Assembly: GCA_029260075.1 (NCBI GenBank) | Contig: JAJDDY010000067.1 | Location: 1 to 64,000 of the forward strand | Length of the DNA stretch: 64,000 bases | From: Phycisphaerae bacterium | GTDB taxonomy: Bacteria; Planctomycetota; Phycisphaerae; UBA1845 | Direction: 5' to 3' | Shown: positions 2,793 through 62,442 of the stretch, piece by piece | Position numbering within the stretch: position 1 is the first letter of the stretch | How the letters are laid out: the number at the start of each line of letters is the position of its first letter | Translations under genes and position numbers: made by a program | Notes under the pieces: generated by a model | The model's input: the letters and a program-made list of their open reading frames with translations, nothing else | What the model was told of the DNA's origin: nothing | Database searches by the model: none

Positions 2793-3386
2793 CTACTCTC
2801 CTTCGGCGTCGCAACTGACGCCAATGATCGGAATGAGCTCCGCAAGCGATTGGATGACGAAGTTCGCCTGGCCCGCAAAGTCTGGCCGGGGGCGCTCGCC
2901 GAGCATGAGCACGGTCCGCGTTCCTGCTGCTGCACCTGATTGAAGGTCAAACAGATAGTCACCCACCATCCAACTCACCCTCGGGTCGGCACCGAGTTCG
3001 CGACAGATGGACAGGATTGGCTCGGCGGAGGGTTTGATCGCACCGTCGTCGCGCGTCCGCACCGTATCCACCGCTAGGCCGAACTTGGCCATCACGGTAT
3101 CGAGCGCGCGGCGCGAGTTGCGTGTGAGAACCGCCAGCGCCAAACCGCCATTGCGACATGCATCGAGCACATCATGCGCGCCGTCGTAGAGCTCCGCATG
3201 TTCAGCCGCCTTTCGTTCGTGCCGCGCAAGAATGACTTCGGCGCGCTGCTGCTCCGCGTCATCCATGTGTTGCATGGCCTCCAAAATGGGGCCGGACACA
3301 CCGATTTCCTCGCGAATGTCGTCGAACAGCAGGCACGGCTTGGTCAAGGTGCCATCGAGGTCAAAGATCACTACCGTCTTGCTCAT
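2793..3386 (-). CDS. HAD-superfamily phosphatase, phosphoglycolate-phosphatase-like
   Basis: Cytoplasmic HAD hydrolase of 197 residues, full length for subfamily I. Motif I is IFDLDGTLT (Asp9 nucleophile, Asp11 acid/base), motif II LTRNS, motif III lysine in AIKPSAEPI and motif IV acidic pair in MVGDYLFD. The helical cap between motifs I and II fits the subfamily IA type seen in phosphoglycolate phosphatases and related small-phosphate phosphatases. The substrate cannot be assigned. The start is well supported: AGGAG lies 6 bases upstream of the ATG. It lies downstream of the three-gene FAD/radical SAM/ligase operon on the same strand, but a family A palindrome separates them and cotranscription is uncertain. 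Confidence 0.88.
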   Translation of the reverse strand: MSKTVVIFDLDGTLTKPCLLFDDIREEIGVSGPILEAMQHMDDAEQQRAEVILARHERKAAEHAELYDGAHDVLDACRNGGLALAVLTRNSRRALDTVMAKFGLAVDTVRTRDDGAIKPSAEPILSICRELGADPRVSWMVGDYLFDLQSGAAAGTRTVLMLGERPRPDFAGQANFVIQSLAELIPIIGVSCDAEGE

Positions 3387-3599: not shown

Positions 3600-5081
3600 T
3601 CACGCGAACGGAATCATATTGGGAATCTCTGGATCGAATAGGTTATCCAGGTCATACGGTCTCAAGAGCGCCGCCACGTCGTCATTATATGTCTTACTCA
3701 TCGCAGCGGTCAGTTCACTTGACTCCGCAAGTCGACAAGCAACGCGATACGATTGATCAACAGCCGCTGTGAACGCCGCATCGCTGGCCATCAGGAAGGC
3801 GTCGCCGTGCTCGCCGCGGCGCCGTCGGTGCTCGCACGACGTTGCACCGGCGAAGTACCCCATCGAATACGGAACCATCAGATCGAACCGATGTCGCGTC
3901 ATATAGCACCCGTGAATCAAGCGGTCGATGAGTTCGATTTCCAGTCCCATGAATCGTTCGTATGCGTTCATTCGCGCACGACGTTCGTTGCCCGCTTCAG
4001 TGTCCGCCAAAATGCCGATTAGTCGTTCGACGCCGACCAGCGTGAAGGCATTGCCTGCACTGTGCAATGGGTCAATGAAACCGGCAGTGTAAGGGAGCAT
4101 GGCCCAATTGTGGCCGGCCACGCGGGCGGCGCGGCGTTGCATTCGACCGGTGCGCACGAATGGTCGTATGGGTTTGGCCCGATCGAATTGCTGTAGAATA
4201 GAGGGGTACTTCTCAATGAGCTTGGCCCACTCTTCGCCCGCACTGATGGACATGTCGAGCGGTGCGTCGGATTCATCCAATACGAACCCAGCGCTGGTCA
4301 CACCGTTGTCGAACCGCAAGACCCACATCCACCCTTCGTCAAAAATATGGTGCAGTGCAGCCGCGTCGCAATCGAAGGGGTGATCATGCGTGGACACATC
4401 GAGGTGCGACAAGACATCACCAAAGCGTTCCACGTCAACAAAATGTGTGTAGAGCGTTCGCGATCGTGTCTTGATCCGTGTCAAGTCCTGTTCAATATTC
4501 AGCGCCGACGCCAAGGCACCCGCTTGTCCGGAAGCATCGACCACAAACCCGGCACGAATACGCACGTCCACCCCATCACGCTGCCCGGAGAACTCCCAGT
4601 CATCCGCTTGCTGAATATGTGTGAGGTGTGTTTGATCTAAGTATGTAATTCCTGCCGCGCGCACCTCGTCGACGAAAAACGCGTCGAGGTCCGCGCGAAG
4701 CCAATGCGTGTCACTCTTCTCGTCACTGGCGCTGGCGCCTACCAATAGTTCGTTGGCGTGGTGTTCACCGGCCGAGAATTCCTCGCCCGGAGTATGTCGA
4801 AAGTAGCTGAAGCCGCGCTTCAGGCCGCATACCAGGTTCGGATAAGTGCGTTTCCATTCTCCATAGCTACAAAGCGGCTTGAGACGGGGTAGGTCGTATC
4901 GCTGTGCAAGGTTTTTCAGTACAAGGTCGGCGATCGGTGTGGACGACTCACCGATGGCGAATCGTGGGTGCGCATATCGCTCGATGAGTACAGGGCGAAG
5001 TCCGATCCGCTGGGCCAACAAAGCGGTAAGACTCCCAGCGAAACCGGCGCCGATGATGGCTATGTCTGCTCTGATTTCCAT
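3600..5081 (-). CDS. Halogenase-like FAD-dependent oxidoreductase
   Basis: 493 residues, probably a cytoplasmic flavoenzyme. The N-terminal Rossmann motif GAGFAG (11-16) binds FAD. GESSTP (44-49) matches the GExxxP segment of the flavin-dependent halogenase and monooxygenase group. VVDASGQAG near residue 185 is the second FAD motif. GWMWVLRF near residue 250 sits where true halogenases have GWxWxIP; the Ile-Pro is missing, so halogenation is doubtful and a hydroxylation or oxidation is equally possible. It is the last gene of a three-gene operon; its ATG overlaps the TAA of the radical SAM gene (TAATG). The carrier or small molecule on which it acts is unknown. There is no nearby flavin reductase. 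Confidence 0.82.
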   Translation of the reverse strand: MEIRADIAIIGAGFAGSLTALLAQRIGLRPVLIERYAHPRFAIGESSTPIADLVLKNLAQRYDLPRLKPLCSYGEWKRTYPNLVCGLKRGFSYFRHTPGEEFSAGEHHANELLVGASASDEKSDTHWLRADLDAFFVDEVRAAGITYLDQTHLTHIQQADDWEFSGQRDGVDVRIRAGFVVDASGQAGALASALNIEQDLTRIKTRSRTLYTHFVDVERFGDVLSHLDVSTHDHPFDCDAAALHHIFDEGWMWVLRFDNGVTSAGFVLDESDAPLDMSISAGEEWAKLIEKYPSILQQFDRAKPIRPFVRTGRMQRRAARVAGHNWAMLPYTAGFIDPLHSAGNAFTLVGVERLIGILADTEAGNERRARMNAYERFMGLEIELIDRLIHGCYMTRHRFDLMVPYSMGYFAGATSCEHRRRRGEHGDAFLMASDAAFTAAVDQSYRVACRLAESSELTAAMSKTYNDDVAALLRPYDLDNLFDPEIPNMIPFA

Positions 5082-6031
5082 TAGGATGACTCGCAGCGGT
5101 CACAGGAAACAGAAGGGCTCACGCATTGTGTGAGGTTCATGGTAGAGAGTCGCGCAGTACGTTGGGCACCGCACGCAGTGCAACTGGAGAATTGCTCGAC
5201 ATCCCATAGGTCCATCAAGACGCGGCCGCGACCAAGTCCCAAACCGTACTCCAGCACAGCCTCCATCGAGGCGAGAGTCGGCGGTGAGAAGTGTCCATTG
5301 GCTTGCAGTTGATCCATGGCGCCGTTGCCCGCTCGTGTCGGTATCACGGCGCAACATTCGACGCCGATGGAAAACGCATACTCGACGGAACGCATGGCCC
5401 AGTCGATGCCCTCCGCTTCGCTTTGAAAGGGCGTGCGAAGCAACACGAATGACCGAACCGAGATGTTGCGATTGAGCAAAAACGTCGTCGCCCGCGTAAA
5501 GTCTTCCAGCGTCATGCGTTTGTTCAGGCGGGGTAGGACGTTCGGGTCCACCGTTTCCAATCCCATCGCCACCTGCACAGCCGGGTCGATCGACGTGGCA
5601 AACTCGACGCATCGCCGATCCACAAGCTTGGGGTGACATTCGACGATCACCGATCGAAAGCTCGACACCTGTCCGGCGATGTCGCGGCGGTCGGCCGGCG
5701 GGATGGCTTGATCGTCAAAGAAATTGCCGGAATTGTAGAGCTTCACACTGTCGGCGCCGGGCAGTCGCTCGAGCGCCCAGCGGACCTGACCGGCCACCGC
5801 ACCGACCGGTACGCGCTCGGGCGTTGTGTTCTTCCAGAGATCGCACATCAGACAGCGGAAGGGGCACGACTTATTGGTGATGAAAACCGTCGCGACATCT
5901 TCGACGCATCCCGAAGCGGACCGCTCCGGCTCGATGAGCCACGCATAGGGTCGCGCCCAGTCGACAGTGTGGCGCGGGCCGCGCAACCCGGCGATGTCGC
6001 GATCGCTCGGTAGCCCGACAACGTCAGGCAT
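5081..6031 (-). CDS. Radical SAM enzyme, RaSEA-like
   Basis: 316 residues. The cluster motif CxxxCxxC is at Cys56, Cys60 and Cys63 (CPFRCLMCDLW), binding the [4Fe-4S] that cleaves S-adenosylmethionine. The segment KLYNSGNFFDDQAIPP resembles the family around the archaeosine-synthase radical SAM subunit (RaSEA), which works on a nucleoside in tRNA, but that resemblance is from memory of the family pattern and the substrate may differ. Near the C-terminus there are further cysteines (SSCTACG, then SVSCDRCESS) that could hold a second Fe-S cluster or zinc. It overlaps the ligase gene by 8 bases upstream and the FAD gene by one base downstream, so the three are translationally coupled and probably act on one product. 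Confidence 0.85.
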   Translation of the reverse strand: MPDVVGLPSDRDIAGLRGPRHTVDWARPYAWLIEPERSASGCVEDVATVFITNKSCPFRCLMCDLWKNTTPERVPVGAVAGQVRWALERLPGADSVKLYNSGNFFDDQAIPPADRRDIAGQVSSFRSVIVECHPKLVDRRCVEFATSIDPAVQVAMGLETVDPNVLPRLNKRMTLEDFTRATTFLLNRNISVRSFVLLRTPFQSEAEGIDWAMRSVEYAFSIGVECCAVIPTRAGNGAMDQLQANGHFSPPTLASMEAVLEYGLGLGRGRVLMDLWDVEQFSSCTACGAQRTARLSTMNLTQCVSPSVSCDRCESS

Positions 6032-7355
6032 CGAACTGCGCCTGAAACGTCTGTCGATAGGTATGCGGCGACTCGGGGAATCGCTCGGCGAAACTGTGCT
6101 CTGGCATGGCGCCGTTTTGGAAGCGGCGCTTTTCGAACACCGGCATCGTCACCCCGGTGACAGCCTCCACCCCGCGCGAAACAATTTCACCCTTCAATGA
6201 ATACAATCGATCGTGTTGCCAGTCCGTCAGTGCGATAAAGGGAATACCCTCAGCCACTTCGATCACGTTCGGTAGGGCGAAGGGGCTGAACGCGTCAAAC
6301 CCCCATCGAGCCGCCGGGGCAAACGTTCGCGTACACGCTCGACCCTGACCACCGCCATACACGAGGGAATGTTTGATCGAGTCGACACCCCATCCTTCTT
6401 GATACAACATGCGGTTGTTGAGCACGCTGCGAATGGTCAGCTCGGGGTTTTCCTCGATTGGATAGTCTTTGAGGTTCTCATCGCCGCCGTCGCCATCGAT
6501 CAAGTATCGCCAGCCCGGATAGGCGCGACGAATGCCACGACACAGTGCCAACGCCATGGCAGCCGACTGAATGTCCAACGGCTTGTAGTCTTCGGTCGTA
6601 CGGATCGCTTCGCGAAAGTCGATCCATTCCGCCGGAACGTCCACCGGTTCGTGCAGAAGCGCCAAGTCCAGGGTTTCGAGAAAGCGCCGGGCCTGATCCA
6701 AATCATCACCCGCGCCGGACACGCACAGCGTAAACGCTTTCAGCCGACCCGGGTTCTGCCCCATCGCCAACATCCGGTGATACAACACAAGCAACACCGC
6801 CCCGCTGTCTACCCCACCCGAAAAACAGACGCCGATTGGCGCGTTCTCATCCAACCGCTCCAACCACTTGCCGATCTCTTGATCCAGCGTTGCGACGTAC
6901 GCTCGCCCTATCTTATCGATATCGGTTTCGTGGACTTCGCGCTCGGGCGCGAAGAATCGCGTATAGGTCGGATTCGGATCGGGACAGCCAACCAGGGCGA
7001 TCTCGGTGATGTAGTGCGCCGGGACCATACGCGTATAGGTTGGATGGTATTGGTCGAGGAACCCCGCATCGCGCAGCCATCGTTCGATGTCGTCCATGCG
7101 GTGTGCGACGACCAATGCCGGTCCGGCGGCTTGCTTGACGATGAAGTACCGCATGGGTACCGAAATCGATCGGGCCAGCCGAACGATGTGGCCCTTTCGA
7201 GCGACGACGGCGAAGGGCCCGTCTATGCGCCGCACGCGCGCCGGATCGCCGGAGGCCACGTCTTGCTGGGCCTCTTTCATGGTTCGGTTGAACGCTACGC
7301 AGCGATTCGAATCTGTCAGATCGATCAGATCACGTATGGGATGATTCTCAGCCAT
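6024..7355 (-). CDS. Asparagine-synthetase-like amide ligase without glutaminase cysteine
   Basis: 443 residues. The C-terminal synthetase domain has the ATP pyrophosphatase P-loop SGGVDSG at 179-185 and YLIDGDGGDEN downstream, so it should adenylate a carboxylate and form an amide. The first 110 residues still look like a remnant of the Ntn glutaminase fold (IDGPFAVVARKGHIVRLARS), but there is no Cys at position 2 and the N-terminal strand is gone. It therefore cannot use glutamine in the usual way. Beta-lactam synthetase and some peptide-tailoring ligases share this loss and use an internal or external amine. GGAG 8 bases before the ATG supports the start. First gene of the operon. Confidence 0.85.
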   Translation of the reverse strand: MAENHPIRDLIDLTDSNRCVAFNRTMKEAQQDVASGDPARVRRIDGPFAVVARKGHIVRLARSISVPMRYFIVKQAAGPALVVAHRMDDIERWLRDAGFLDQYHPTYTRMVPAHYITEIALVGCPDPNPTYTRFFAPEREVHETDIDKIGRAYVATLDQEIGKWLERLDENAPIGVCFSGGVDSGAVLLVLYHRMLAMGQNPGRLKAFTLCVSGAGDDLDQARRFLETLDLALLHEPVDVPAEWIDFREAIRTTEDYKPLDIQSAAMALALCRGIRRAYPGWRYLIDGDGGDENLKDYPIEENPELTIRSVLNNRMLYQEGWGVDSIKHSLVYGGGQGRACTRTFAPAARWGFDAFSPFALPNVIEVAEGIPFIALTDWQHDRLYSLKGEIVSRGVEAVTGVTMPVFEKRRFQNGAMPEHSFAERFPESPHTYRQTFQAQFDA

Positions 7356-7711: not shown

Positions 7712-8761
7712 ATGACAACCATTCTTGGCATTGAAACTTCCTGCGATGAAACCTCCGCGTCTGTGGTCGATGATGGCTGCACCGTGCGGAGCAATATCGT
7801 CGCGTCGCAGATTGACCTGCACCGTAAGTATGGCGGCGTGGTTCCGGAGATTGCTGCGCGGGCCCATATCGAGAACCTCGACGCCGTGGTCGACGAAGCC
7901 CTGTCGGCGGCGCGGTGCAAGCCGGACGATATTGACGCCATCGCCGTGACCAACCGGCCCGGGCTCGTCGGCGCTCTGCTCATCGGCGTGACCGCAGCCA
8001 AGACGCTCAGTTGGACGTGGGACAAACCGCTCGTCGGTGTGGACCACATTCTTGCGCACGCCCATAGTGCGGCCATCGACCTGGATTCACCGCCCTGGCC
8101 AGCGGTCGGATTGATCGTGTCGGGTGGTCACACGTCGTTGTTTCGCATCACCGCACCGACCGAAATCGAACTATTGGGCGCCACCACCGACGACGCGGCG
8201 GGCGAGGCATTCGATAAGGTGGCGGCCATCTTGGGACTGCCCTATCCCGGGGGACCGGCCATCGAACGCGTGGGGAAATCCGGCAACGCGCGAGCCGTAA
8301 GTTTTCCGCGCACCATGCTCGGTGCGGAGTCGCTGGATTTTTCCTTTTCCGGCATCAAGACGGCCGTGCTCTATCACGTCCACGGGCACGGTCAGACAAG
8401 TGGCGGATTAGAGAAACAAACCGAGGGAGACGTGGCCGACATTGCAGCCAGCTTTCAGCAGGCGGTCGTCGATGTGCTGGTTCGCAAGACGATGCTGGCC
8501 GTGGCAAAGACGGGCGTTTCGGCGGTCGTGCTGGGCGGCGGAGTGGCGGCCAACAGCGCGCTGCGGGAGCAACTGGAAAGCACCTGCCGCGATCGTCGCT
8601 TAGATTTTCACGCGGCAAGAATGTCCTACTGCACGGACAACGCCGCGATGATCGCCGCACTGGGTTACCACATGTTTGCGGGCGGCACACGCGACCGTCT
8701 TGATTTGGAAGCCTATCCCACCGGAACGTTTCACGCCCGTGCGGGTCGCGTCCGCAAGTAG
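7712..8761 (+). CDS. tsaD: tRNA N6-threonylcarbamoyladenosine transferase TsaD
   Basis: 349 residues, full length for the Kae1/TsaD family. It transfers the threonylcarbamoyl group from TC-AMP to A37 of ANN-decoding tRNAs, working in the cytoplasm with TsaB and TsaE. The start GIETSCDETSASVVDDG is the family signature. The metal-binding HxxxH is at His112 and His116 (HILAHAHSA), with SGGHTSL, GEAFDKVA and VLGGGVAANSALR as the ATPase-fold motifs. The ATG directly precedes the conserved N-terminus, so the start is firm. tsaB and tsaE are not in the window. The downstream gene converges from the opposite strand. Confidence 0.97.
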   Translation: MTTILGIETSCDETSASVVDDGCTVRSNIVASQIDLHRKYGGVVPEIAARAHIENLDAVVDEALSAARCKPDDIDAIAVTNRPGLVGALLIGVTAAKTLSWTWDKPLVGVDHILAHAHSAAIDLDSPPWPAVGLIVSGGHTSLFRITAPTEIELLGATTDDAAGEAFDKVAAILGLPYPGGPAIERVGKSGNARAVSFPRTMLGAESLDFSFSGIKTAVLYHVHGHGQTSGGLEKQTEGDVADIAASFQQAVVDVLVRKTMLAVAKTGVSAVVLGGGVAANSALREQLESTCRDRRLDFHAARMSYCTDNAAMIAALGYHMFAGGTRDRLDLEAYPTGTFHARAGRVRK

Positions 8762-13048: not shown

Positions 13049-13568
13049 CCATGAGTCCGCCAACCACCCGATGCGTCCACGGTGTGCGACGCCGAGGTCT
13101 GGTTAAGTCACCGCGCGGACAGCGTAACCGGACTTGCCCCAACGGTTTTTCTGAGCTTGCGTATCGGCCGATAATATTATCCCCCTTCTCGCTCGCCGCT
13201 CGAAAGCTATTGAGACGACTGCGCCTCGCAGGCGATCACACTATTGTGCGGACCATTACGATGGTCGAGAACGGACACCACGTCCAATACCGGTGGTGAG
13301 GTTGAATTCACTGCACCGGCCAGACATAATGGTTGTGACCTATTGGGGGATGTTGCTCAGACCATCTGATGCGACGCACTGGCAGGGGTCTTCGTGTACT
13401 TGGTCCGCCGGCATGACACGGGGTCCGCGCCAAGAGGGGACCGGGGAAAACATGATCACGCATTGAAGGCCGTGGCCACTTTGTAGACGAACTGCGATTC
13501 GTGCCTGCGCGGAGTGTGCAAACGCGGCAAGAAATCAGTCAGACGCGGCTTAGGAAGGGTTGCGACGA

Positions 13569-13640
13569 ACCGAGCCGCGCCCGTAAGGAAGCGGTCTTTG
13601 GCACTTGAAACCGGACCGCGTCCTGACGGGTGCGGCTCTG
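13569..13640. repeat. Family A palindrome
   Basis: Inverted repeat ACCGAGCCGCGCCCGTAAGG and CCTGACGGGTGCGGCTCTG with a loop of about 34 bases, about 100 bp upstream of the metalloprotease gene. Outer ends like those of the 12906 element are only partly preserved. Confidence 0.8.
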
Positions 13641-13745
13641 AAAGAGACCTGCTTAACACGTTCTCAGACGCTGCGCGGCCGGTTGATCGTCGATGGGGGT
13701 TGTTGACGTAGCATGCGTTGACGCGTGGGGATTTAGGTAACGACA

Positions 13746-15854
13746 ATGAAGCGAAGTGTAAGAAATCATTATCGACGTGCAGCCTTTGCGGCGGCGCTGG
13801 CCGTTGCTATTGGCGGCGTGTTGTCGAGCGCAGCCCTCGCCGCGCGCCCGCCAAGGTCGACCACGCGTCGAGGCGTATCGCCAACGGCCCTGCGCCCATC
13901 GGCTGCACAACTTGCCGAAGAGATAGCCACTACACTGAACGTGGCGTCCGCATCACTGACGATGCTGCCGATTCGTCAAACGCCGGCCGGCGTCGTGACG
14001 ACCGACGTCATGCTCGACGGACAAGTTCGATCGCTTTCCCTGCATCGTCACTCGGTGCGGGCGGCCGGCTTTCAGCTATTGGTACAAGGTGACGACGGTT
14101 CGCTTGTCGCGGTCGCTCCCGGTCCCGTCAGCACACTACGCGGCGAAATCGACGGTTTGCCAGGAAGTGTCGTCGCGGCGTCACTCACGAACGAAGGCCT
14201 CCGCGCCAAAATCGTACTGCCGGACGACACAACTTATTGGGTAGAACCGTCGGCCGGCCGGATCGCATCCGCTCGCGCCGGCGAACACCTCGTCTACCGA
14301 GGCGACAACGTCATGCCCAGCGGCGGAACGTGCGCCATGGCCACCGCCGCCGTGGACAACGGCGCGATCGCCACCACCTCCGGAACGTCCGGAACCGTGT
14401 CGGCTGCCGGCGGATTGTTTCTGGCGGAACTTCTGATCGACACCGATTACGAATTCTTCCTCAGCTCATCCAGTGATGCACAAACCGTGGTTGATCGCAT
14501 CGAATCCATCATCAACGGCGTCAACGTGCAGTTCGAGCGAGACGTGGCCATCAGGCACGTTATTACGAGAATCGTCGTGCGCTCTTCACCCAACGATCCG
14601 TACGCGGACATCCCGAGTGATGCGGATGCGTTGCTATCCAAGTTTCAAGACGTATGGCGATTCAGCTCAGAACGACGTGACCTTGCTCAGCTATTCACTG
14701 GACGACAGTTGGCCGGTTCCACGATCGGTATCGCGTTCGTCGGTTTTGTCTGCTCGTCGGGTTTCGGTTATAGCCTGGTCGAGGGCAACTGTAGTTCGTG
14801 CTCCACTGTGGCCTGCCGGACCGACCTGTCGGCGCATGAACTCGGGCACAACTGGGATGCGATACATTGTGGCGACGCAGGGCCGGGCGATCCCAGCCCG
14901 TGCAGTCCATCGTGCCCCGGGTTTACGATGAATTGTTCCCTCCAATGCGCGAACCAGTTTCACTCATTGCTCACGGTCCCGGATATCATCACCGAACGCG
15001 ACTTGAAGGCGCCTATTTGTCTCGATCAAGGCGACGAATTGATCCGATTGATTCTGGCCGTCGACCCGCCGGGCACCACATCCATCAACGAGGGTGACTC
15101 AGTACAGTTTGCCGCTACGGCGAACTTTCGATTCGGCGCCGATCAAGATGTAACCACACTCGCCACTTGGTCAGTAGACCGCCCGCAGGCCGGTTCGATT
15201 GACACAGTCGGTCTGTTCACTGCGTTCGACGTCGTCGGCGACACGTGCATCACCATCTCCGCCACGTACACTTCGGAAGGCATCCAGCGGACCAATACGA
15301 GAACGATTATCATCGTCGACCTGGACCAAGCCCGTGCGTTCGTTCAGTCCGACCCAACCGACGGCGCCATCGACGCCCGGCAACCGAGTGATCCGAACGG
15401 TCGGAACACGGCCGGTTGGCGATTCCTCGACCTAATGTACAACGGCGACGTGTGCATGTTGACAGCCGCCGATTTCGTTTCGACGGAGTTGGGCGATGAC
15501 GGAATCGCCCCGTTGGTCGTGAATCTTCAGAACGTGGGCGATCGCGCCATACGTCTCGTGCTGTTGAGCACGGCTGACGCTTGTGCGTGGACCACGGTAA
15601 CCGACACGACGATCGGAGCGTCGATTGCGTTTGCTGTTTTGGCTGGTGATGTAGACGGTGACGGCATCGCGGACACGGCGGATGTGGTCCGACTGATCGA
15701 CTCGTTGATCGGTTCGGGCGCCGCACTGCCAGTTTGGTCGACGGACATTGATCGCTCTGACCTGACCGCACCGCCCGACATTCTTCGACTTATCGACCTG
15801 CACAACGGCGCCGGCGTGTATGAAGTCTGCCCCGGTCGCCAACTGCCGCCGTAG
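13746..15854 (+). CDS. Secreted metzincin-like metalloprotease with dockerin-like tail
   Basis: 702 residues. A signal peptide covers about residues 1-36. A propeptide-like region follows to about 210. The catalytic domain carries HELGHNWDAIH (His364, Glu365, His368, His374), the metzincin HExxHxxGxxH zinc motif with Asp in the Gly position, and a likely Met-turn in CPGFTMNC. Next is an immunoglobulin-like or Big-type beta domain (ILAVDPPGTTSINEGDSVQF, about 438-530). The C-terminus, from VLAGDVDGDGIADTADVVRL, has dockerin-type calcium loops, a common tail on planctomycete secreted proteins that may anchor or sort them. It likely digests external protein. Many cysteines near the active site suggest disulfides. 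Confidence 0.85.
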   Translation: MKRSVRNHYRRAAFAAALAVAIGGVLSSAALAARPPRSTTRRGVSPTALRPSAAQLAEEIATTLNVASASLTMLPIRQTPAGVVTTDVMLDGQVRSLSLHRHSVRAAGFQLLVQGDDGSLVAVAPGPVSTLRGEIDGLPGSVVAASLTNEGLRAKIVLPDDTTYWVEPSAGRIASARAGEHLVYRGDNVMPSGGTCAMATAAVDNGAIATTSGTSGTVSAAGGLFLAELLIDTDYEFFLSSSSDAQTVVDRIESIINGVNVQFERDVAIRHVITRIVVRSSPNDPYADIPSDADALLSKFQDVWRFSSERRDLAQLFTGRQLAGSTIGIAFVGFVCSSGFGYSLVEGNCSSCSTVACRTDLSAHELGHNWDAIHCGDAGPGDPSPCSPSCPGFTMNCSLQCANQFHSLLTVPDIITERDLKAPICLDQGDELIRLILAVDPPGTTSINEGDSVQFAATANFRFGADQDVTTLATWSVDRPQAGSIDTVGLFTAFDVVGDTCITISATYTSEGIQRTNTRTIIIVDLDQARAFVQSDPTDGAIDARQPSDPNGRNTAGWRFLDLMYNGDVCMLTAADFVSTELGDDGIAPLVVNLQNVGDRAIRLVLLSTADACAWTTVTDTTIGASIAFAVLAGDVDGDGIADTADVVRLIDSLIGSGAALPVWSTDIDRSDLTAPPDILRLIDLHNGAGVYEVCPGRQLPP

Positions 15855-15871
15855 CGGATATGCATCGACAC

Positions 15872-15910
15872 CGGATTCGACTCCCCCCGCCTCTGAAGAG
15901 ATGGGCCACC
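15872..15910. repeat. Family C repeat
   Basis: GGATTCGACTCCCCCCGCCT followed by CTGAAGAGATGGGCCACC, between the convergent metalloprotease and TauE genes. Confidence 0.75.
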
Positions 15911-15949
15911 TTGTACGCGGGCCGGGTGCCATGTTTACTGGTCGCGGAA

Positions 15950-16735
15950 CTAACCGACGGCCGCGCCTGTCCAGAACGGCATGTTCATCAGTCCGTCGAC
16001 CACAAGCACCTTGAGCCCCGCAAGAATCAACGCGACGCGAAAGGCGATGCGAAACTGCGACTCACTCACGCGTTGTTGCAGTCGCTTGCCGATGAGTGTG
16101 CCGGGAATGACCACGACGATCATAATCGCAGCCAGCAGCCCGAGCTTGGAAAGATCGAGCTGTCGCATCAGAATGAACGCCGGGATTTTGAAGACGTGAA
16201 TCGATAGTTGGCAGACAGCCTTCGTCGCGATGAGTCGCTCTTTCGTAAAATCTCGACGGGCGAAGAGCGGCGCGATCAACGGCCCCACCGCCCCCACCGT
16301 AAGCGCCGCGACGCCGGCGACCAATCCCATCAGCGGAAAGTCCCACCACGTGCCGGTCTTGTGGCCGTTCGCTCCACCCCTCGGTATGAACGTCGAAGAT
16401 ACGATATAGCAACCAATGAGCGTCTTAAGGTAGGGCTCGCTGCCGCCCATCTGTCCCAACGACCACAAGAGCAAGAGGCCGATGGTCGCGCCGGGTACCA
16501 CGCCGAAGAGAAAGCGAACGAACGCACTGCGGTCGATGTGCCGCGCGAACGCCATCACACGTGTGCCGTTGCTTGCGATCTGCACCGCAGCGTGCGTCGG
16601 TATGGACTCGGCGTGCGTGAGAAAACACATCATCACGGCAAGCAGCATCACACCGCCGGCCATGCCCAAAATCGCGGATATGATGGACGTAATGAGCGCA
16701 ACAATCGCGAGTGTGCCGAGCACCCATGCGCTCAT
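15950..16735 (-). CDS. TauE/SafE-family membrane permease
   Basis: 261 residues with about eight hydrophobic segments, the usual build of the TauE/SafE (DUF81) family of inner-membrane anion or sulfur-compound exporters. The repeated half-motif is visible at the start (ISAILGMAGGVMLLAVMM) and in the second half (VAGVAALTVGAVGPLIAPLF). The start at 16735 was chosen because its ATG overlaps the TGA of the phosphopantetheinyl transferase gene (ATGA), which implies translational coupling with the lipid operon. Its substrate is unknown; a link to export of an operon product or to sulfur supply for carrier proteins would be inference. Last gene of the operon. Confidence 0.85.
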   Translation of the reverse strand: MSAWVLGTLAIVALITSIISAILGMAGGVMLLAVMMCFLTHAESIPTHAAVQIASNGTRVMAFARHIDRSAFVRFLFGVVPGATIGLLLLWSLGQMGGSEPYLKTLIGCYIVSSTFIPRGGANGHKTGTWWDFPLMGLVAGVAALTVGAVGPLIAPLFARRDFTKERLIATKAVCQLSIHVFKIPAFILMRQLDLSKLGLLAAIMIVVVIPGTLIGKRLQQRVSESQFRIAFRVALILAGLKVLVVDGLMNMPFWTGAAVG

Positions 16736-17391
16736 CGGGCGTTGCCCCCACAACTGGAATGCGAATCTAAAGGGCCATCAAGATGGCACCAGTCGATATC
16801 GAGCGGCTGAATCGTTTCGTCGGGTTCGTCGACACAGGTTGCACATGCCCCGGTCTCCGCCTGAATGGCCAGCGCGGTGACGTGGTCTTCGTGGTGATGG
16901 TGTTCAACCATCCATCGTGCGCCCTCATAAATAAGTGCCATTCGAGCGGCACTTATTATCTCGACAAGTCGGCATGAAGAAAACCCGGCAATACCCACGC
17001 CGTTCGCTTTCAATGTGGCTTCCTTGGCCGTCCAAAGTCGATAGAACGCGGGCCACGACTGACTGCCCACGAGGTTCCATTCCTCAACACCCGCCAGCTT
17101 GTCGTGGAGTCGATGCGGTCGCGGTTCGATCTTTTCAATGTCGATACCGACAGGTTTGCAGGCGATGACTGCGGCTGCGAAATCACGCTTGTGTGAAAGT
17201 GACCAGTGGAATCCGCAATTGGGCATAGGTACTTCGGTCTCAGACTTGCACCACCCCTCGGCGGGTGCGCCGCAGAGACTGGCGCAGTGTCGAAGCGCAG
17301 TACGCGCGGCGATTCGTTGATGTTGCACTTGGGCCGGTGTGCGTGGCGGCGCTTCGCTCGGAACGGCCACGATAACCGGACGCAGGATCAT
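16732..17391 (-). CDS. Sfp-type 4'-phosphopantetheinyl transferase
   Basis: 219 residues. It should attach phosphopantetheine from CoA to the serine of carrier proteins. Motifs: HWSLSHKRD near residue 65, VGIDIEKIEP (magnesium-binding Asp and Glu) and FYRLWTAKEATLKANGVG, the conserved WxxKEAxxK helix. The size fits the Sfp group rather than the short AcpS type, suggesting it serves a dedicated carrier, presumably the ACP encoded five genes upstream. The ATG at 17391 overlaps the FabI TGA (ATGA); a longer reading from 17463 would run back into the FabI gene. The C-terminal 40 residues hold cysteines and acidic residues of no known role. Confidence 0.88.
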   Translation of the reverse strand: MILRPVIVAVPSEAPPRTPAQVQHQRIAARTALRHCASLCGAPAEGWCKSETEVPMPNCGFHWSLSHKRDFAAAVIACKPVGIDIEKIEPRPHRLHDKLAGVEEWNLVGSQSWPAFYRLWTAKEATLKANGVGIAGFSSCRLVEIISAARMALIYEGARWMVEHHHHEDHVTALAIQAETGACATCVDEPDETIQPLDIDWCHLDGPLDSHSSCGGNAR

Positions 17392-18257
17392 GACGGATCG
17401 GTGGTCGACCGGCCTTCTGTCGGCGAAGCACCTGCTGTGGGCGAATTTTCCACAGTGGGCCAAGCACCGGCCAGCGTATGCTTCACGACGTCCTGATCGA
17501 AATAGTTCGTGCTCATACCGGCGTCGACGACGATCCGCTGGGCGTTGATACCGCTCGACCGCTCGCTCAGCAGAAACACCGCCGTGGCTGCGACCTCGTC
17601 CGTGGCGAGTCCCTTCTTGCGAAGCGTAACCTGCTCGGCGTACATGTAGTGATCAACGTAACCTGGAATACCGGCGGACGCGCTGGTCTTAAGCAAGCCC
17701 GCGCCGACCGAGTTGAATCGTATCTCGGAGAACCGGCTGAACGACTTCGCGAGGAACGCGGTCGTCGAGTCGAGCGCCGCCTTGGCTGGGGCCATGTATC
17801 CGTAACTTTCGACAGCCATGCGCGTGGTCGAAATGGAAATGGTCACCACGCTCGCCCGTTTATGCATCAGATGGCTGAACGCCTTGGCGATCGACACGAG
17901 CGAGAAACAGCTTACCGAGACGCACTGAAGAAAATCTTCCCGCCGAACTTCGTGGAACGTGCCCGAGAACGATTCGTAGTTGGCGTAGGCGATGGAGTGT
18001 ACGATTCCGTGGATCGGACCGCTGCCGACGGCCTTCGCCAACTCGGCAATCTGATCGTCGTCCCCCACATCGCACACGTGAACCTCGCGCCCAGCCAACA
18101 GTCGGTCGAGGCGTTCGCGACGCTCTTGCGACCGCACGCTGTAGATGACCGTCGCCCCTTCTTCCTCCAGAAGATGGGCGATGCGGTAGGCCACACTCCG
18201 TTTGTTGGCCACACCGAAGACGAGAAAACGCTTGCCGGTCAGGTCGAGAAAGCTCAC
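17388..18257 (-). CDS. fabI: Enoyl-ACP reductase, FabI type
   Basis: 289 residues. NADH/NADPH-dependent short-chain reductase that reduces the trans-2-enoyl-ACP double bond. FLDLTGKRFLVFGVANKRS is the FabI N-terminus, HSIAYAN the mid motif, and Tyr152 and Lys159 (SYGYMAPAKAAL) the catalytic YxxxxxxK pair. I take the GTG at 18257 as the start because it matches the conserved N-terminus and AGGCGGCGGG lies upstream; an ATG at 18290 would add 11 residues and overlap fabZ. The last ~25 residues (AWPTVENSPTAGASPTEG) are an odd tail of three imperfect six-residue repeats. It may be dedicated to the lipid cluster, given that housekeeping FAS genes are not nearby. Confidence 0.93.
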   Translation of the reverse strand: MSFLDLTGKRFLVFGVANKRSVAYRIAHLLEEEGATVIYSVRSQERRERLDRLLAGREVHVCDVGDDDQIAELAKAVGSGPIHGIVHSIAYANYESFSGTFHEVRREDFLQCVSVSCFSLVSIAKAFSHLMHKRASVVTISISTTRMAVESYGYMAPAKAALDSTTAFLAKSFSRFSEIRFNSVGAGLLKTSASAGIPGYVDHYMYAEQVTLRKKGLATDEVAATAVFLLSERSSGINAQRIVVDAGMSTNYFDQDVVKHTLAGAWPTVENSPTAGASPTEGRSTTDPS

Positions 18258-18262
18258 GATGG

Positions 18263-18700
18263 TTACCCGCCGCCTGGGGTTTGCATGCACACGAATTGAA
18301 CGCGAAGGACAGGCTTGCCCTCAACAGACGCCCGCCCCGTCAGGTAATACGCATTGTCGAGTTCATCATCGAGCGTCACGTCCATGCGAAGCGTCGAACC
18401 GGGTTTGACAATCCGGCGAAACTTCGCGTCGGTAATGCGTGTCAACACCGGCACGCCCCGGGACGCGTCGTAGCCGCCCATTCGATGGGCGATCAGCAGG
18501 GCACCCGCTTGAAAGCAGCACTCACTGATGAGCACGCCGGGCATGACCGGTTCGTGGGGGTAATGGCCTCGAAAGAAATCGGCCGACGGATCGACGTATT
18601 TCGTGGTAACGATGCGCCCGTCGTCCACTTCAACAATCTCGTCGACAAACAGAAAGGGCGGTCGATGCGGAATCGACTCTATGCTTAGGGTCTTTGTCAT
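18263..18700 (-). CDS. FabZ-like 3-hydroxyacyl-ACP dehydratase
   Basis: 145 residues, normal hotdog dehydratase length. [13 protein letters not shown] at residues 10-22 is the family start and [16 protein letters not shown] carries the catalytic His46 and Glu60. It dehydrates 3-hydroxyacyl-ACP in the elongation cycle. The ATG at 18700 overlaps the TGA of the upstream CrtI-like gene (ATGA). A longer reading upstream is unsupported. FabZ and FabI in tandem with a dedicated ACP and ketosynthase make a nearly complete elongation module; only a FabG-type ketoreductase is missing. Confidence 0.92.
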
Positions 18701-20163
18701 GAGCGCATGGGCTCCGTCGTGGAGATCGTGTCGTCGTGCCCGCCGGTTCTTGCCTGTTCGAACATGTAGGTCTCCAACTCGTTGGCGACGATCACACCGT
18801 AGTTGATCGCACCAAGCCAACCGGACATGATGATACCCACAGACCCGGCGTGGAACAGACCTGGGATATGATTGGGTAAGTCCATACTGACCTTCAACCC
18901 CTCGAACTTCGTGCCGAAGGTCGAGCCGTGCATCTGCTGCGTATAGTGGTGAAACGTCACCGGCGTCGACGCTTCGACGTGGTCGAGTTTGCTTCGTATG
19001 TCGGGCACATATTTCTCAAGAGCAGCCAACGTCGTTTCGATCAGGTGCGCCTTGTCGCGTTGATAGTCCTCTGGGCTGAGGTTGGCCCAATCATTCCAGT
19101 TCGCGTTGGTCGACGAGACGATGGCGTAGCGATCGCTACCCGGTCGCGTGTCGGGGTAGTACATGGAAAACGTTCGACTCGTGACGTCCCTGGCGCACAT
19201 GGCCTTCGTATCGAACACGTCGCTGACGGACGTGAAAAGCAGGTCGCCGATGTAGTCGATCCGCTCACCCTTCTTGATTCCCATATAGACCTGGCAACTG
19301 CTGTTGTTGAGTCGGACCGCCCGCGTTTCTTCGAGCAACTCATCCGGGCAATGCTCCGGACCCACCAGCTTTTCCACGGTTGTCTTGAGGTTGGCGTTGG
19401 AAAGCACGGCGCCGGCGCTGATCCGCCGACCGTTGGCGATCACACCGCACGCCCGTCCGTCTTCAACAACGATGCGCTCGACCTGAACCTGTTTGCGCAG
19501 GTCGACGCCGGTGCGCACCATCTCCTGACGCATCATCTGAATGAGCTTGTCGGTGCCACCCTGAAAAATGTAGACGCCCCTGCTCATGAAGTTGGAAAAA
19601 ACGATGCCGTACGTGATGGCCGGGTCGTCCAGTGTGGAGCCGTTAGCGTAGGTGATCGGTTCCATCAGCAGACGGACGACGTCGGATCGGCCGGGAAAGA
19701 ACTTCTCGAACAACTCGCGCGTGGTCATGGACTGGTCATCGTAGAAGTCCATGCGCCGCGCGGTGTCGAAGAATGATTCCACCGTTTCAGGGGCGATGCC
19801 GAACCGCTCGACGAGAATTCGCGTGAAGTCGGCGCGGTCGAACGGTGTCTTCAGTTGAAACTGGGGGTTGTCGAACACGATGCCTTTGAGTTGGACGATG
19901 CAGTCGGCGATCTCGCGGGTCCAATACTTCCGGCAGCTCTTGATCATGCCGATCGGAAACCCGTGCAGCGAAATATCGAAAATGTGCCCGCCCTTGCGCC
20001 GAAACCAGGTGGCCATGCCGCCGAAGTTGTAGTGTTGTTCGAGAAGCAGGACGCTTCGCCCGCACTTGGCGAGGTTGTTCGCAGACGTCATCCCCGCGAG
20101 GCCCGCGCCGATCACGATCACATCGTAGTGATCCCGTACACCATCAAGACGATCCCGCGCCAT
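18697..20163 (-). CDS. CrtI-like FAD oxidoreductase 1
   Basis: 488 residues. Phytoene-desaturase (CrtI) superfamily: the FAD dinucleotide motif [18 protein letters not shown] lies at about 14-31, followed by [16 protein letters not shown]. The C-terminal motif [20 protein letters not shown] matches the CrtI end signature region. Relatives desaturate, isomerise or saturate polyenes. No phytoene synthase or cyclase is nearby; the neighbours are fatty-acid enzymes, so an acyl-ACP or polyene substrate is more likely than a carotenoid. Two such enzymes side by side also occur in the gene sets proposed for anammox ladderane lipids. The gene is translationally coupled to fabZ and 49 bases downstream of the second CrtI-like gene. 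Confidence 0.85.
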
Positions 20164-20212
20164 AATCCGAAACTACCCTCAACTTTCCGTGGCTACGCGG
20201 TACTTCCCGTCG

Positions 20213-21637
20213 CTAGGCTTGGGAAAGCACATGCAGGTTCGCAATGGTGACCCCGCTGAGCATGGCCCCAATGATACCCAGAAACCCCTGATCGGTTCCG
20301 CAGATGAAGAGGTTTTCGACGCGCGTGCGTCCGTCACGTCTCTTGCGCGGCGAACCGTAGACCGCTCCGTTCGCGTGACCCGTAAACCGCTGGATCGTTC
20401 GCGGCGTGAACATGTCAGTATACACAATATGCGGCGAAAATCCCGGTATGACCGATTCGCCGCGCCGACGAAAGTCGGCCAGCAGCGACGCCTTGGCCTC
20501 GCGGTAGGCGACCTCGTCCAGCGAGTTCCACCGCGCGTAGTTGGCGAGCCACGTCACGCGGAACAGACTATCCTTTACCGACTCGTGCCCTTCGTAGTTG
20601 GTCGGACAGCAGATCACACCGCTTCGAAGATCCACGAGTTCGTTCGGGACAGCGTAGTCGAACACATCCGAATCGTTGAAGAACACGATCGCAGCGTCGT
20701 GGCCAAGCTGATGCGGATGTTCGTCGAGCACGGCGATCGTCTCCACGAACGATATCCGACCGACTGGGTCGTCTGGCACATTTTGGCTGTGATCGGAGCA
20801 CATGCCCATGGTTTCGTGGAAACCAGCGGACGAAAACACCACGTCGGCGGTAATCTGCTCGCCGGAGTCGAGCACGATGCTCTCGACCGTGCCGCCCTTC
20901 ACGTTGATTCGGTCGACGCCGCATTGCATGCGGAGCTTGCCACCGCACGATCGATACTTGCGTACGAGCATCTTGATAATCGTGCGGACGCCATCCACCG
21001 GCCTCGCGAAGCCTTCGAGAAGAATACTCTTGAACATGGTCACGAACTGCGTGAAGTCCATGTCGTGCTCTTCCGCACTTCCGTAGTACATGAGCGGGCA
21101 GAGCAGCATTTCCGTCAGGACCGGATCGTCAATATGCGCGCGCAGGACGCGGCGGGCCGATAGGGGCTTGGCGTCGAGGCGGACGTCGTTGTACTCACGC
21201 ACCACGGTCAACAAGCGTTGGAACGCGTCCTTCTGGTGTGGGAATTCTCGTGCGACCTCGTCGGTAAGTTCGGCGATGTCGTTGGAAAAGCGCAATGTTC
21301 GACCCGGGAAACGAATCTCGGAGAACCGCTGCGGATGCATCGCGAAATCGTCACGGGTGAGGCGTAGCTGCCGACAGAGCTTGGCGAGGGGTGCTTGTCG
21401 TACGTTTGGCGGGGCAAAATTCGTCACCGCGTGCAACCCGACGTCGAACGAACGACCGTCGATCGTGTAGTACGAATTCAACCCGCCGTACGCATAGTGC
21501 TTCTCGAGAATGCATACGCGCTTGTCGAAGTAGGCAAGGCGAATCCCCGCTGCGAGCCCGGACATGCCCGCACCAATGATGGCGACGTCGTAGTGCATTG
21601 GGGTAGAACGTGAGGGCGCCTCATGCCGCCGGACCAT
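20213..21637 (-). CDS. CrtI-like FAD oxidoreductase 2
   Basis: 474 residues. Same superfamily as the next gene but clearly diverged: VAIIGAGMSGLAAGIRLAYF is the FAD motif, followed by CILEKHYAYGGLNSYY, and VENLFICGTDQGFLGIIGAM near the C-terminus. The ATG at 21637 has AAGGGAG 5 bases upstream, so I prefer it; another ATG at 21598 starts MHYDVAIIGAG, closer to the domain. It probably acts on the same acyl substrate as its paralogue, perhaps as a consecutive desaturation or isomerisation step; this is inference. It follows the acp gene after a 245 bp gap that holds two repeats. Confidence 0.85.
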   Translation of the reverse strand: MVRRHEAPSRSTPMHYDVAIIGAGMSGLAAGIRLAYFDKRVCILEKHYAYGGLNSYYTIDGRSFDVGLHAVTNFAPPNVRQAPLAKLCRQLRLTRDDFAMHPQRFSEIRFPGRTLRFSNDIAELTDEVAREFPHQKDAFQRLLTVVREYNDVRLDAKPLSARRVLRAHIDDPVLTEMLLCPLMYYGSAEEHDMDFTQFVTMFKSILLEGFARPVDGVRTIIKMLVRKYRSCGGKLRMQCGVDRINVKGGTVESIVLDSGEQITADVVFSSAGFHETMGMCSDHSQNVPDDPVGRISFVETIAVLDEHPHQLGHDAAIVFFNDSDVFDYAVPNELVDLRSGVICCPTNYEGHESVKDSLFRVTWLANYARWNSLDEVAYREAKASLLADFRRRGESVIPGFSPHIVYTDMFTPRTIQRFTGHANGAVYGSPRKRRDGRTRVENLFICGTDQGFLGIIGAMLSGVTIANLHVLSQA

Positions 21638-60693: not shown

Positions 60694-62442
60694 TCAACGC
60701 GTGGGCGTAACCTCGCCTGATCCCCGTCGAAGATCGTACAGTTTCCCCGCCGTCGCCGATCCAAATTTTTCGGTCTGACCGTCTGGCCAGCGCACGGTGA
60801 TTTCGTCGACGCGTGTCAACTTCCCCAGCCCGAAGTGGACTCGTGGATCGTTGCTTGAACAATAGCTATACGCCCGCTGCACCAGGGCGTAGCGGTGGCG
60901 CGTACCGGTGGTAATTTTTACGCGTGCGCCGAGGGCGTAGCGACCGTGAGCATCAAGCACGCGAAACATCACCCAGTTGCCTTGGGCGCCGACGACGTTA
61001 CGCAACACATGAACGCGCGCATCTCGGTTCACCACAACCACGTCAATATCGCCGTCGTTATCCAAATCGCCGAAGGCGGCGCCGCGACTTGTTCGGACAA
61101 GCGGCGGGGTCACGCCGCCACGTGGTAGAACTTCCTTAAACGCACCGCCGGAAACGCCGGCGTATAGCAGGTTTTCCTCGTCGTAGGGACGATCCGGATT
61201 GTCATACGGACGCACCCTCACCACGCGGCCATTGACGACGAACAAATCGACGTTGGAATCGTGATCAAAATCAGCGAATCCCAGGCCGAACCCTGTATAG
61301 GCCGCGCTCGATGCGGCCAAACCCATGGTGGGCGTCACGTCATCAAACCAATCCCCTCGATTGAGGTAGAACGTGTTGGTCTCACCGCGCAGGTGCGACA
61401 TGAAGAGATCGAGCTGACCATCTTCGTTAATATCCACAGCCGCCACACCCATGCCGGCTTCTACCGTGCCGTGGTGATTCAGAGCACAACCCACCGTCGG
61501 GGCGTCGTCCTTGAACTTGTCGTCACCTTGGCTTCGCCATAGCTGATTCGCCATGCCGTCGTTGGCCACGTAGAAATCAATGCGTCCGTCGCCGTTGAAG
61601 TCCCCCGACGCAAGACCCAATCCGTTGCCGAAGGTCCGGTCGAGCCCGACCGATCGGCTGACATCGGCGAATCGACCGTTCCCCAAGTTGCGCAGCAGCA
61701 CGTCACACGCCGGCGCGTTGTAGCCGTTCGGACCGCAATAAATTCGCTCGTCGAGCGCACTCCAGCATTCTCGTTCCAGTGCCGGAGACCACTCCAAATA
61801 GTTGACGACGAACAAGTCCAAGAGACCGTCGCCGTCGTAGTCCACAAACGCCGTGCTGCTTCCCCACCCTGCGTGACCCACGCCGGCGGCCTCCGTCACG
61901 TCCGAAAACGTACCGTCGCCGTTGTTGCGGTACAGCACATTCGCGCCGACATTGGTGACATACAAATCAACATCGCCGTCACCGTCGTAGTCACCGCACG
62001 CAGCGCCCATTCCATACGATGAGTCACCGGTGCCCGTGCGGTCGGTGACGTCTTCAAACGTGCCGTCGCCCAGGTTTCGATACATCCGGTTCGTCGGGTG
62101 CTCGGCCGCAGTCGAAGCTAGTGCGCCACCCTGAACCAGGTAGACGTCGATCCAGCCATCGCGGTCGTAGTCGAGCAACGCCACGCCACCGGACATCATT
62201 TCAGGCAGCCAGAAACGATGCGTTACGGCCGCAACATGCTGAAAGTCGATGTTCATCTCAGCGGCCGACTCTTCGAACCAAACTCGACCACTTGTCTCAC
62301 ACGCTCGATCACCGGCCGGTTTTTCCGCGCATCCTACGACAGCAAGAAGTGAAAGAAGGAGGAAGAGCGCTGACCCGTTCGGCAGCCGGCTGAAGGAATT
62401 GAACACGACCCGCAACCGACTACGCAATGCGCAACCCGACAT
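60694..62442 (-). CDS. CRTAC1-type FG-GAP/ASPIC-UnbV lipoprotein
   Basis: 582 residues. Lipoprotein signal with lipobox LAVVGC (Cys38). About seven FG-GAP propeller repeats with calcium loops such as DYDRDGWIDVYL, DYDGDGDVDLYV, DYDGDGLLDLFV, DFNGDGRIDFYV and DLDNDGDIDVVV. The C-terminus is an ASPIC/UnbV domain (YCSSNDPRVHFGLGKLTRVD, ITVRWPDGQ). Family expanded in planctomycetes, likely binding carbohydrate or protein on the cell surface; no enzyme known. Its ATG directly follows the TAG of the TPR gene, so the two are cotranscribed. Confidence 0.92.
   Translation of the reverse strand: MSGCALRSRLRVVFNSFSRLPNGSALFLLLSLLAVVGCAEKPAGDRACETSGRVWFEESAAEMNIDFQHVAAVTHRFWLPEMMSGGVALLDYDRDGWIDVYLVQGGALASTAAEHPTNRMYRNLGDGTFEDVTDRTGTGDSSYGMGAACGDYDGDGDVDLYVTNVGANVLYRNNGDGTFSDVTEAAGVGHAGWGSSTAFVDYDGDGLLDLFVVNYLEWSPALERECWSALDERIYCGPNGYNAPACDVLLRNLGNGRFADVSRSVGLDRTFGNGLGLASGDFNGDGRIDFYVANDGMANQLWRSQGDDKFKDDAPTVGCALNHHGTVEAGMGVAAVDINEDGQLDLFMSHLRGETNTFYLNRGDWFDDVTPTMGLAASSAAYTGFGLGFADFDHDSNVDLFVVNGRVVRVRPYDNPDRPYDEENLLYAGVSGGAFKEVLPRGGVTPPLVRTSRGAAFGDLDNDGDIDVVVVNRDARVHVLRNVVGAQGNWVMFRVLDAHGRYALGARVKITTGTRHRYALVQRAYSYCSSNDPRVHFGLGKLTRVDEITVRWPDGQTEKFGSATAGKLYDLRRGSGEVTPTR

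Follow-up and report, generated by a model that had tools for sequence, protein, structure and literature searches.

The secreted redox complex quinohaemoprotein amine dehydrogenase (QHNDH) contains haem and propeller parts. QhpG, a flavin enzyme of the halogenase fold, dihydroxylates tryptophan within a redox-enzyme subunit (PMC7876137). In archaeosine synthesis, ArcS makes a lysine adduct, which is then processed by its radical S-adenosylmethionine (SAM) partner RaSEA (PMC11298593). Here we analysed a locus of three genes (the trio), encoding a ligase, a radical SAM enzyme and a flavin adenine dinucleotide (FAD) enzyme, in a 64,000-nucleotide stretch of DNA from a Phycisphaerae bacterium (assembly GCA_029260075.1, contig JAJDDY010000067.1, positions 1 to 64,000; the window). 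The trio occurs in hundreds of bacterial genomes, spread over many phyla. Its enzymes belong to known superfamilies; as far as can be told, the gene set and its secreted partners are undescribed. An earlier annotation made from the sequence alone (the original prediction) had found no described pathway with this set. This view was borne out: all three enzymes scored well below the curated NCBIfam cut-offs of their nearest named families, and no publication joining them was found in the open-access literature searched, a weak absence since most subscription journals lie outside it. The link of the trio to secreted FG-GAP/UnbV lipoproteins and multihaem cytochromes, as well as the dispensability of the FAD enzyme, goes beyond that prediction.

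The ligase and radical SAM pair and its flavin partner

The genes of the trio are arranged in the window as follows.

6024..7355, minus strand: gene 1, ligase, 443 amino acids; ATP-dependent amide ligase of the asparagine synthetase/beta-lactam synthetase fold with a non-working glutaminase domain
5081..6031, minus strand: gene 2, RaSEA-like radical SAM enzyme, 316 amino acids
3600..5081, minus strand: gene 3, flavin-dependent halogenase-like FAD enzyme, 493 amino acids

The reading frames were confirmed at these coordinates, together with the predicted overlaps of 8 bases between the ligase and radical SAM genes (6024-6031) and of 1 base between the radical SAM and FAD genes (5081).

Sixty relatives were checked for the ligase with a detection threshold of E 1e-10. 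It was detected in 19/60 genomes, the window's included, with 56-69% identity, and the radical SAM gene adjoined it in all 19. The FAD gene came next in 14 of these loci and in truncated form in one more; two loci stop at a contig edge and two carry a gene for a HAD-family hydrolase instead. A scan of genome contigs gave at least 555 ligase relatives, and the locus counts below cover the best 80, with about 58-68% identity. These were labelled Planctomycetota, Bacteroidota, Calditrichota, Marinimicrobia, Gemmatimonadota, Acidobacteria, Deltaproteobacteria and others, some perhaps wrongly since many are metagenome bins. Cultured carriers include Parafilimonas terrae, Agriterribacter humi, Mucilaginibacter segetis, Rhodopirellula rubra and Roseithermus sacchariphilus. 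Order and strand of the ligase and radical SAM genes were kept in 57/80 loci, with the FAD gene third in 37 of those. Because these loci come from many phyla, the arrangement is not due to chance.

The two genes were also inherited together where they are not neighbours, so that the expected conservation of the trio as a unit holds beyond physical linkage. The radical SAM gene did not adjoin the ligase gene in 23 of the 80 loci and was encoded elsewhere in 19 of those genomes. Among 392 Planctomycetota genomes, a ligase match and a strong radical SAM match occurred in 22 each, and these were the same genomes; in one of them (G275) the ligase gene lies mid-contig on the long contig C3 and the radical SAM gene on C25. 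The FAD enzyme was present in 20 of the 21 trio genomes of Planctomycetota besides the window's, and in single-contig genomes such as G128, G107 and G240 hundreds of kilobases separate its gene from the pair. Among the genomes tested it was missing from Calditrichota, Marinimicrobia and several others, and it therefore represents an accessory step. The ligase and the radical SAM enzyme are an inseparable pair and the FAD enzyme is a dispensable member. The lineages without it presumably live without oxygen.

At the trio loci, neither a transporter nor a resistance gene nor a further biosynthetic set was found to be conserved with the trio, and the flanking genes were otherwise not conserved. 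Downstream of the trio in the window lies one further gene:

2793..3386, minus strand: HAD-family hydrolase

It was considered as a fourth core member and rejected, being accessory at most: a HAD gene adjoins the ligase and radical SAM genes only in L023 and L024, the two closest loci besides the window, where the FAD gene is lacking. On the other side, a tsaD-like gene (tRNA threonylcarbamoyladenosine synthesis; 7712-8761, opposite strand) adjoins the trio; its position beside the trio varies among the loci.

Secreted lipoproteins and multihaem cytochromes

Clustering of the neighbouring genes revealed an FG-GAP/UnbV family and multihaem cytochromes recurring near the trio. One lipoprotein subtype of about 1100-1250 residues carries TPR repeats as well as FG-GAP repeats, an incomplete UnbV domain and, at its C-terminus, a conserved domain of 440 residues; its N-terminal lipoprotein-like signal was read by eye. 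The gene for this lipoprotein stood beside the trio in 16/80 loci versus about 0.2 expected at roughly one copy per genome, and these loci were labelled with six phyla (Bacteroidota, Calditrichota, Deferribacteres, Marinimicrobia, Gemmatimonadota and Planctomycetota). Linked or not, the C-terminal domain was encoded in 22/22 trio genomes of Planctomycetota versus 113/370 others, and in 18/19 relatives with the trio versus 1/14 without it (Fisher p 3e-7 to 2e-11, kinship ignored). In G047, a genome of the window's order, the lipoprotein gene directly follows the FAD gene, and the ligase and radical SAM genes lie at the end of a different contig. This genome was considered as a case of an FAD gene split from the pair and set aside: as the radical SAM and FAD genes both sit at contig ends, one operon broken by the contig end is likelier.

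Within the window's order, a cytochrome that spans the membrane in several segments or fewer and bears multiple CxxCH motifs was encoded by 15/15 relatives with the trio versus 0/16 without it (Fisher p 3e-9, kinship ignored), and in two other planctomycete families by 13/13 genomes with the trio versus 3/6 without. In the window's genome (G000) the corresponding genes lie outside the window on contig C21, where they form one gene run apart from the trio:

G000:C21 ~13100-15178: multihaem cytochrome
G000:C21 ~15179-17050: UnbV protein
G000:C21 ~17124-20591: C-terminal-domain lipoprotein

In another genome (G392) the trio faces a run of lipoprotein, UnbV protein and cytochrome genes. The pair was found almost only in genomes encoding the C-terminal-domain lipoprotein, and in Planctomycetota usually together with the membrane-anchored multihaem cytochrome c and a second FG-GAP/UnbV protein.

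The relationship is not symmetrical, as the trio rarely occurs without the lipoprotein and the lipoprotein often occurs without the trio. Among 50 lipoprotein sequences placed in a tree, 12 trio-negative ones formed a separate clade and 24 trio-positive sequences fell into one clade with only 3 trio-negative sequences nested in it; the copy of the window's genome belonged to a second group of five, all trio-positive. Residues differing between trio-positive and trio-negative lipoproteins mostly mark these clades. Glu754 (L050 numbering), present in 29/30 sequences with the trio versus 5/20 without it (mostly Gln), was rejected as a mark of the trio, being largely a clade effect; two of the nested trio-negative lipoproteins keep it and it is a weak lead only. 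Within the C-terminal domain (e.g., L050:4853-6205) invariant Cys, Trp and Pro positions were seen, and none of the Pfam models listed as matching the full-length protein (L050:2606-6208) covers its approximately 440 residues.

The UnbV domain in general was discarded as a partner, since it was found in 13/16 relatives without the trio and is hence not specific. One such protein is encoded in the window:

60697..62442, minus strand: FG-GAP/UnbV secreted-type protein

It is one of nine UnbV matches in the window's genome and belongs to the broad family of the secreted partners, with no specific link to the trio shown. Further genes were noticed near other trio loci. Fusions of cytochrome and beta-propeller (L171:8210-11104 and L170:548-2548, in bins labelled Marinimicrobia and Deferribacteres) score 217 and 251 bits against the hydrazine synthase beta-gamma model, whose cut-off, 1250, is far higher. 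Two Bacteroidota encode NqrB/RnfD-like membrane proteins directly after an FG-GAP/UnbV gene (L176:1743-2591 and L179:2846-3694).

The three enzymes

The ligase matched PF00733 (3.7e-14) and scored 42 bits against the asparagine synthetase model TIGR01536, below its cut-off of 267. It had been predicted to keep the SGGVDSG motif and to have lost the glutaminase nucleophile. Both features were confirmed: the PP-loop FSGGVDSG occupies residues 178-185, and among 30 relatives none had a Cys within the first 12 residues. A search of the Protein Data Bank (PDB) with the single ligase sequence (phmmer) gave no useful match. The AlphaFold2 model (pLDDT 88) showed the beta-lactam synthetase fold, matching beta-lactam synthetase 1mc1 in Foldseek (8e-15) and in VIA (Z 25.9, rmsd 3.7 over 375 residues), with asparagine synthetases tied at Z of about 25. 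In the structural alignment, residue 4 of the ligase pairs with residue 40 of beta-lactam synthetase. The structure search of the N-terminus proposed earlier thus revealed that the first ~40 residues of the glutaminase domain are missing and not the nucleophile alone.

In the radical SAM enzyme the CX3CX2C motif (C56, C60 and C63) was kept in all 27 relatives. The best NCBIfam model was that of RaSEA (TIGR01210) with 108 bits (5.5e-31), below the cut-off of 212, and the match to MnmL/YtqA was far weaker, so the description as RaSEA-like stands in this qualified sense. Of the extra C-terminal cysteines described before, C284 and C287 were kept in 20-21/27 relatives and the last ones were variable. 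The AlphaFold2 model (pLDDT 95) matched the radical SAM fold in general and, because the best rows were tied (Z 15-17), these matches name no function; PDB searches with the single sequence (phmmer) and with the family profile yielded no useful match. The RaSEA score could be read as a sign of tRNA modification, similar to that of archaeosine or to that of MnmL. Apart from falling short of the RaSEA cut-off, the trio is patchily distributed and is tied to secreted proteins and a halogenase-like enzyme, and the linked partner at the trio loci is a ligase of the asparagine synthetase type and not ArcS, which was not searched for elsewhere in the genomes. A function in tRNA modification is thus held to be highly improbable.

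The FAD enzyme had been described as carrying GESSTP without an intact WxWxIP motif of the halogenases, and this proved to apply to the whole family. ESSTP was kept in 26/26 relatives, as was the catalytic-type Lys88, and G11, G13 and G16 of the GxGxxG motif were likewise invariant. At the position of WxWxIP the enzyme of the window reads WMWVLR and the family W-x-W/Y-x-L/I-R/H; the Pro was replaced by Arg in 20/26 sequences, by His in 4/26 and by Asn and Lys in one each, and was present in none. WxWxIP is part of a motif proposed to keep halogenases from hydroxylating (PMC10696468). Its loss makes a role as monooxygenase likely, as judged from sequence, and halogenation would also be possible. 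The family profile matched PltM (1.9e-79) and tetracycline 7-halogenase (1e-74); the best NCBIfam model, that of QhpG (NF049967), gave 69 bits versus a cut-off of 240.

Plasmid pFRL5 of Streptomyces sp. F8 (L021, 19716-33675) encodes a protein distantly related to the radical SAM enzyme (28.7% identity over 54%). Its gene begins a run with a P450, a serine hydroxymethyltransferase, a glycosyltransferase, a carbamoyltransferase, heptose enzymes and a phosphotransferase, which resembles a biosynthetic cluster. This relative, and the occurrence of halogenase-like and beta-lactam-synthetase-like enzymes in secondary metabolism, of which they are typical, would fit a remnant or miniature antibiotic gene cluster. 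The same three genes recur, however, across phyla with such similar ligases and with no genes for scaffold synthesis, export or resistance, and we consider this origin very unlikely.

Proposed role and comparison with known systems

Based on the observed association with secreted proteins, we tentatively propose, at a little under even probability, that the trio produces a modification or cofactor that the secreted lipoproteins and cytochromes use, or attaches it to them before their export. The trio would then be the cytoplasmic half of a two-part system with the secreted proteins as the other half, and the modification or cofactor would serve extracytoplasmic electron transfer by these proteins. 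Substrate, chemistry and product are suggested by analogy. As in other members of its family, the ligase would convert a carboxylate with ATP to an acyl adenylate, which would then be joined to an amine. The RaSEA-like enzyme, as in the sequence of ArcS and RaSEA, would act on the amide adduct, perhaps by N-C cleavage with the amine donor leaving its nitrogen behind. Where oxygen is present, the flavin enzyme may hydroxylate or halogenate an aromatic ring of the substrate or product. The wider claim is that ligase and radical SAM enzyme form a widespread system which, with an optional oxygen-dependent flavin reaction, generates a redox cofactor of a new kind, carried by or bound to protein, for the secreted FG-GAP/UnbV lipoproteins and the multihaem cytochromes; it is conceivable but doubtful.

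Several observations weigh against a role in maturing the secreted proteins. Many genomes that lack the trio encode the lipoprotein domain, mostly in another clade with 3-5 close exceptions, and the trio is therefore not strictly required for it. None of the four Bacteroidota tested had the multihaem cytochrome, which was thus dropped as a universal partner. UnbV proteins of any kind averaged 9.7 in relatives with the trio versus 2.4 in those without it, a count made without an unrelated control family. Neither a precursor peptide nor a QhpC-like small subunit was found at the trio loci; around the trio, no small open reading frame was conserved across phyla except shadow frames of conserved neighbours, in a search that covered the trio loci and not an unlinked secreted operon. 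Finally, the closest solved relatives of the FAD enzyme are PltM and tetracycline 7-halogenase, the substrates of which are small phenols and not proteins.

The higher UnbV number means that some of the co-occurrence may stem from a common lifestyle, with trio and secreted proteins gained and lost together according to habitat and not acting in one pathway, which would also suit the lack of conservation of the flanking genes. Direct adjacency of trio and lipoprotein in several phyla, far above chance, speaks against this, and this evidence is free of the UnbV-number and control problem that affects the presence/absence tables. Covariation by habitat is hence regarded as unlikely.

The main alternative is that the trio makes a free small molecule, such as a phenol-like metabolite or redox carrier in amidated, oxidized or halogenated form. 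It would stay unattached to protein, and the secreted proteins would merely bind, use or import it, if their link to the trio is more than a shared lifestyle. In addition to the FAD enzyme, this is suggested by the ligase, whose fold is nearest to beta-lactam and asparagine synthetases, both of them small-molecule enzymes, and whose mean column identity of 71% across phyla is as for one fixed small substrate; TonB/SusD-like and binding-protein genes lie near some trio loci. Conversely, genes for export, scaffold synthesis or resistance are not conserved with the trio, which is moreover tightly co-inherited with one secreted lipoprotein family, unlinked cases included. We judge this alternative possible, though with considerable doubt.

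If the trio does modify the secreted proteins or supply their cofactor, it would provide the first biochemical handle on the FG-GAP/UnbV (CRTAC1-like) family, whose secreted members are abundant in trio genomes and for which no function was found, and a new case of combined ligase and radical SAM chemistry. Even with a free metabolite as the product, the trio would be a compact three-enzyme pathway that could be rebuilt in E. coli. The naturally dispensable flavin step allows testing of the reaction order.

Among the described systems, ArcS and RaSEA share with the trio the combination of an adduct-forming enzyme with a radical SAM enzyme of the same NCBIfam neighbourhood. The trio differs in that its adduct-forming enzyme is a ligase of the asparagine synthetase/beta-lactam synthetase fold and its radical SAM enzyme scores below the RaSEA cut-off; moreover, it is bacterial, has an extra flavin enzyme and is tied to secreted lipoproteins. 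Beta-lactam and carbapenam synthetases are also known to have lost glutaminase function. With these and asparagine synthetase B the ligase shares the fold and the PP-loop, but the start of its glutaminase domain is deleted, the identity is 11-19% and no gene of those pathways was seen next to it. PltM and tetracycline 7-halogenase (CTC7) resemble the FAD enzyme over most of its length and have the GES motif and the catalytic-type Lys, whereas the FAD family ends the WxWxIP motif with L/I-R/H, the Pro being lost throughout. In QHNDH maturation, as in the role proposed for the trio, a cytoplasmic radical SAM enzyme (QhpD) and a halogenase-fold flavin enzyme (QhpG) serve a secreted redox complex (PMC7876137). 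In contrast, the FAD enzyme of the trio falls far short of the QhpG cut-off, its radical SAM enzyme is RaSEA-like, a ligase is added, and neither a small cross-linked subunit nor a protease was found with it. Finally, hydrazine-synthase-like clusters with a CRTAC1/FG-GAP protein (PMC12758564) resemble the trio neighbourhoods in genomes of the Marinimicrobia and Calditrichota type. Radical SAM and asparagine-type enzymes are unmentioned there and the propeller-cytochrome fusions occur at only part of the trio loci, but FG-GAP/UnbV proteins, binding proteins, cytochromes and such fusions near the trio are common to both.

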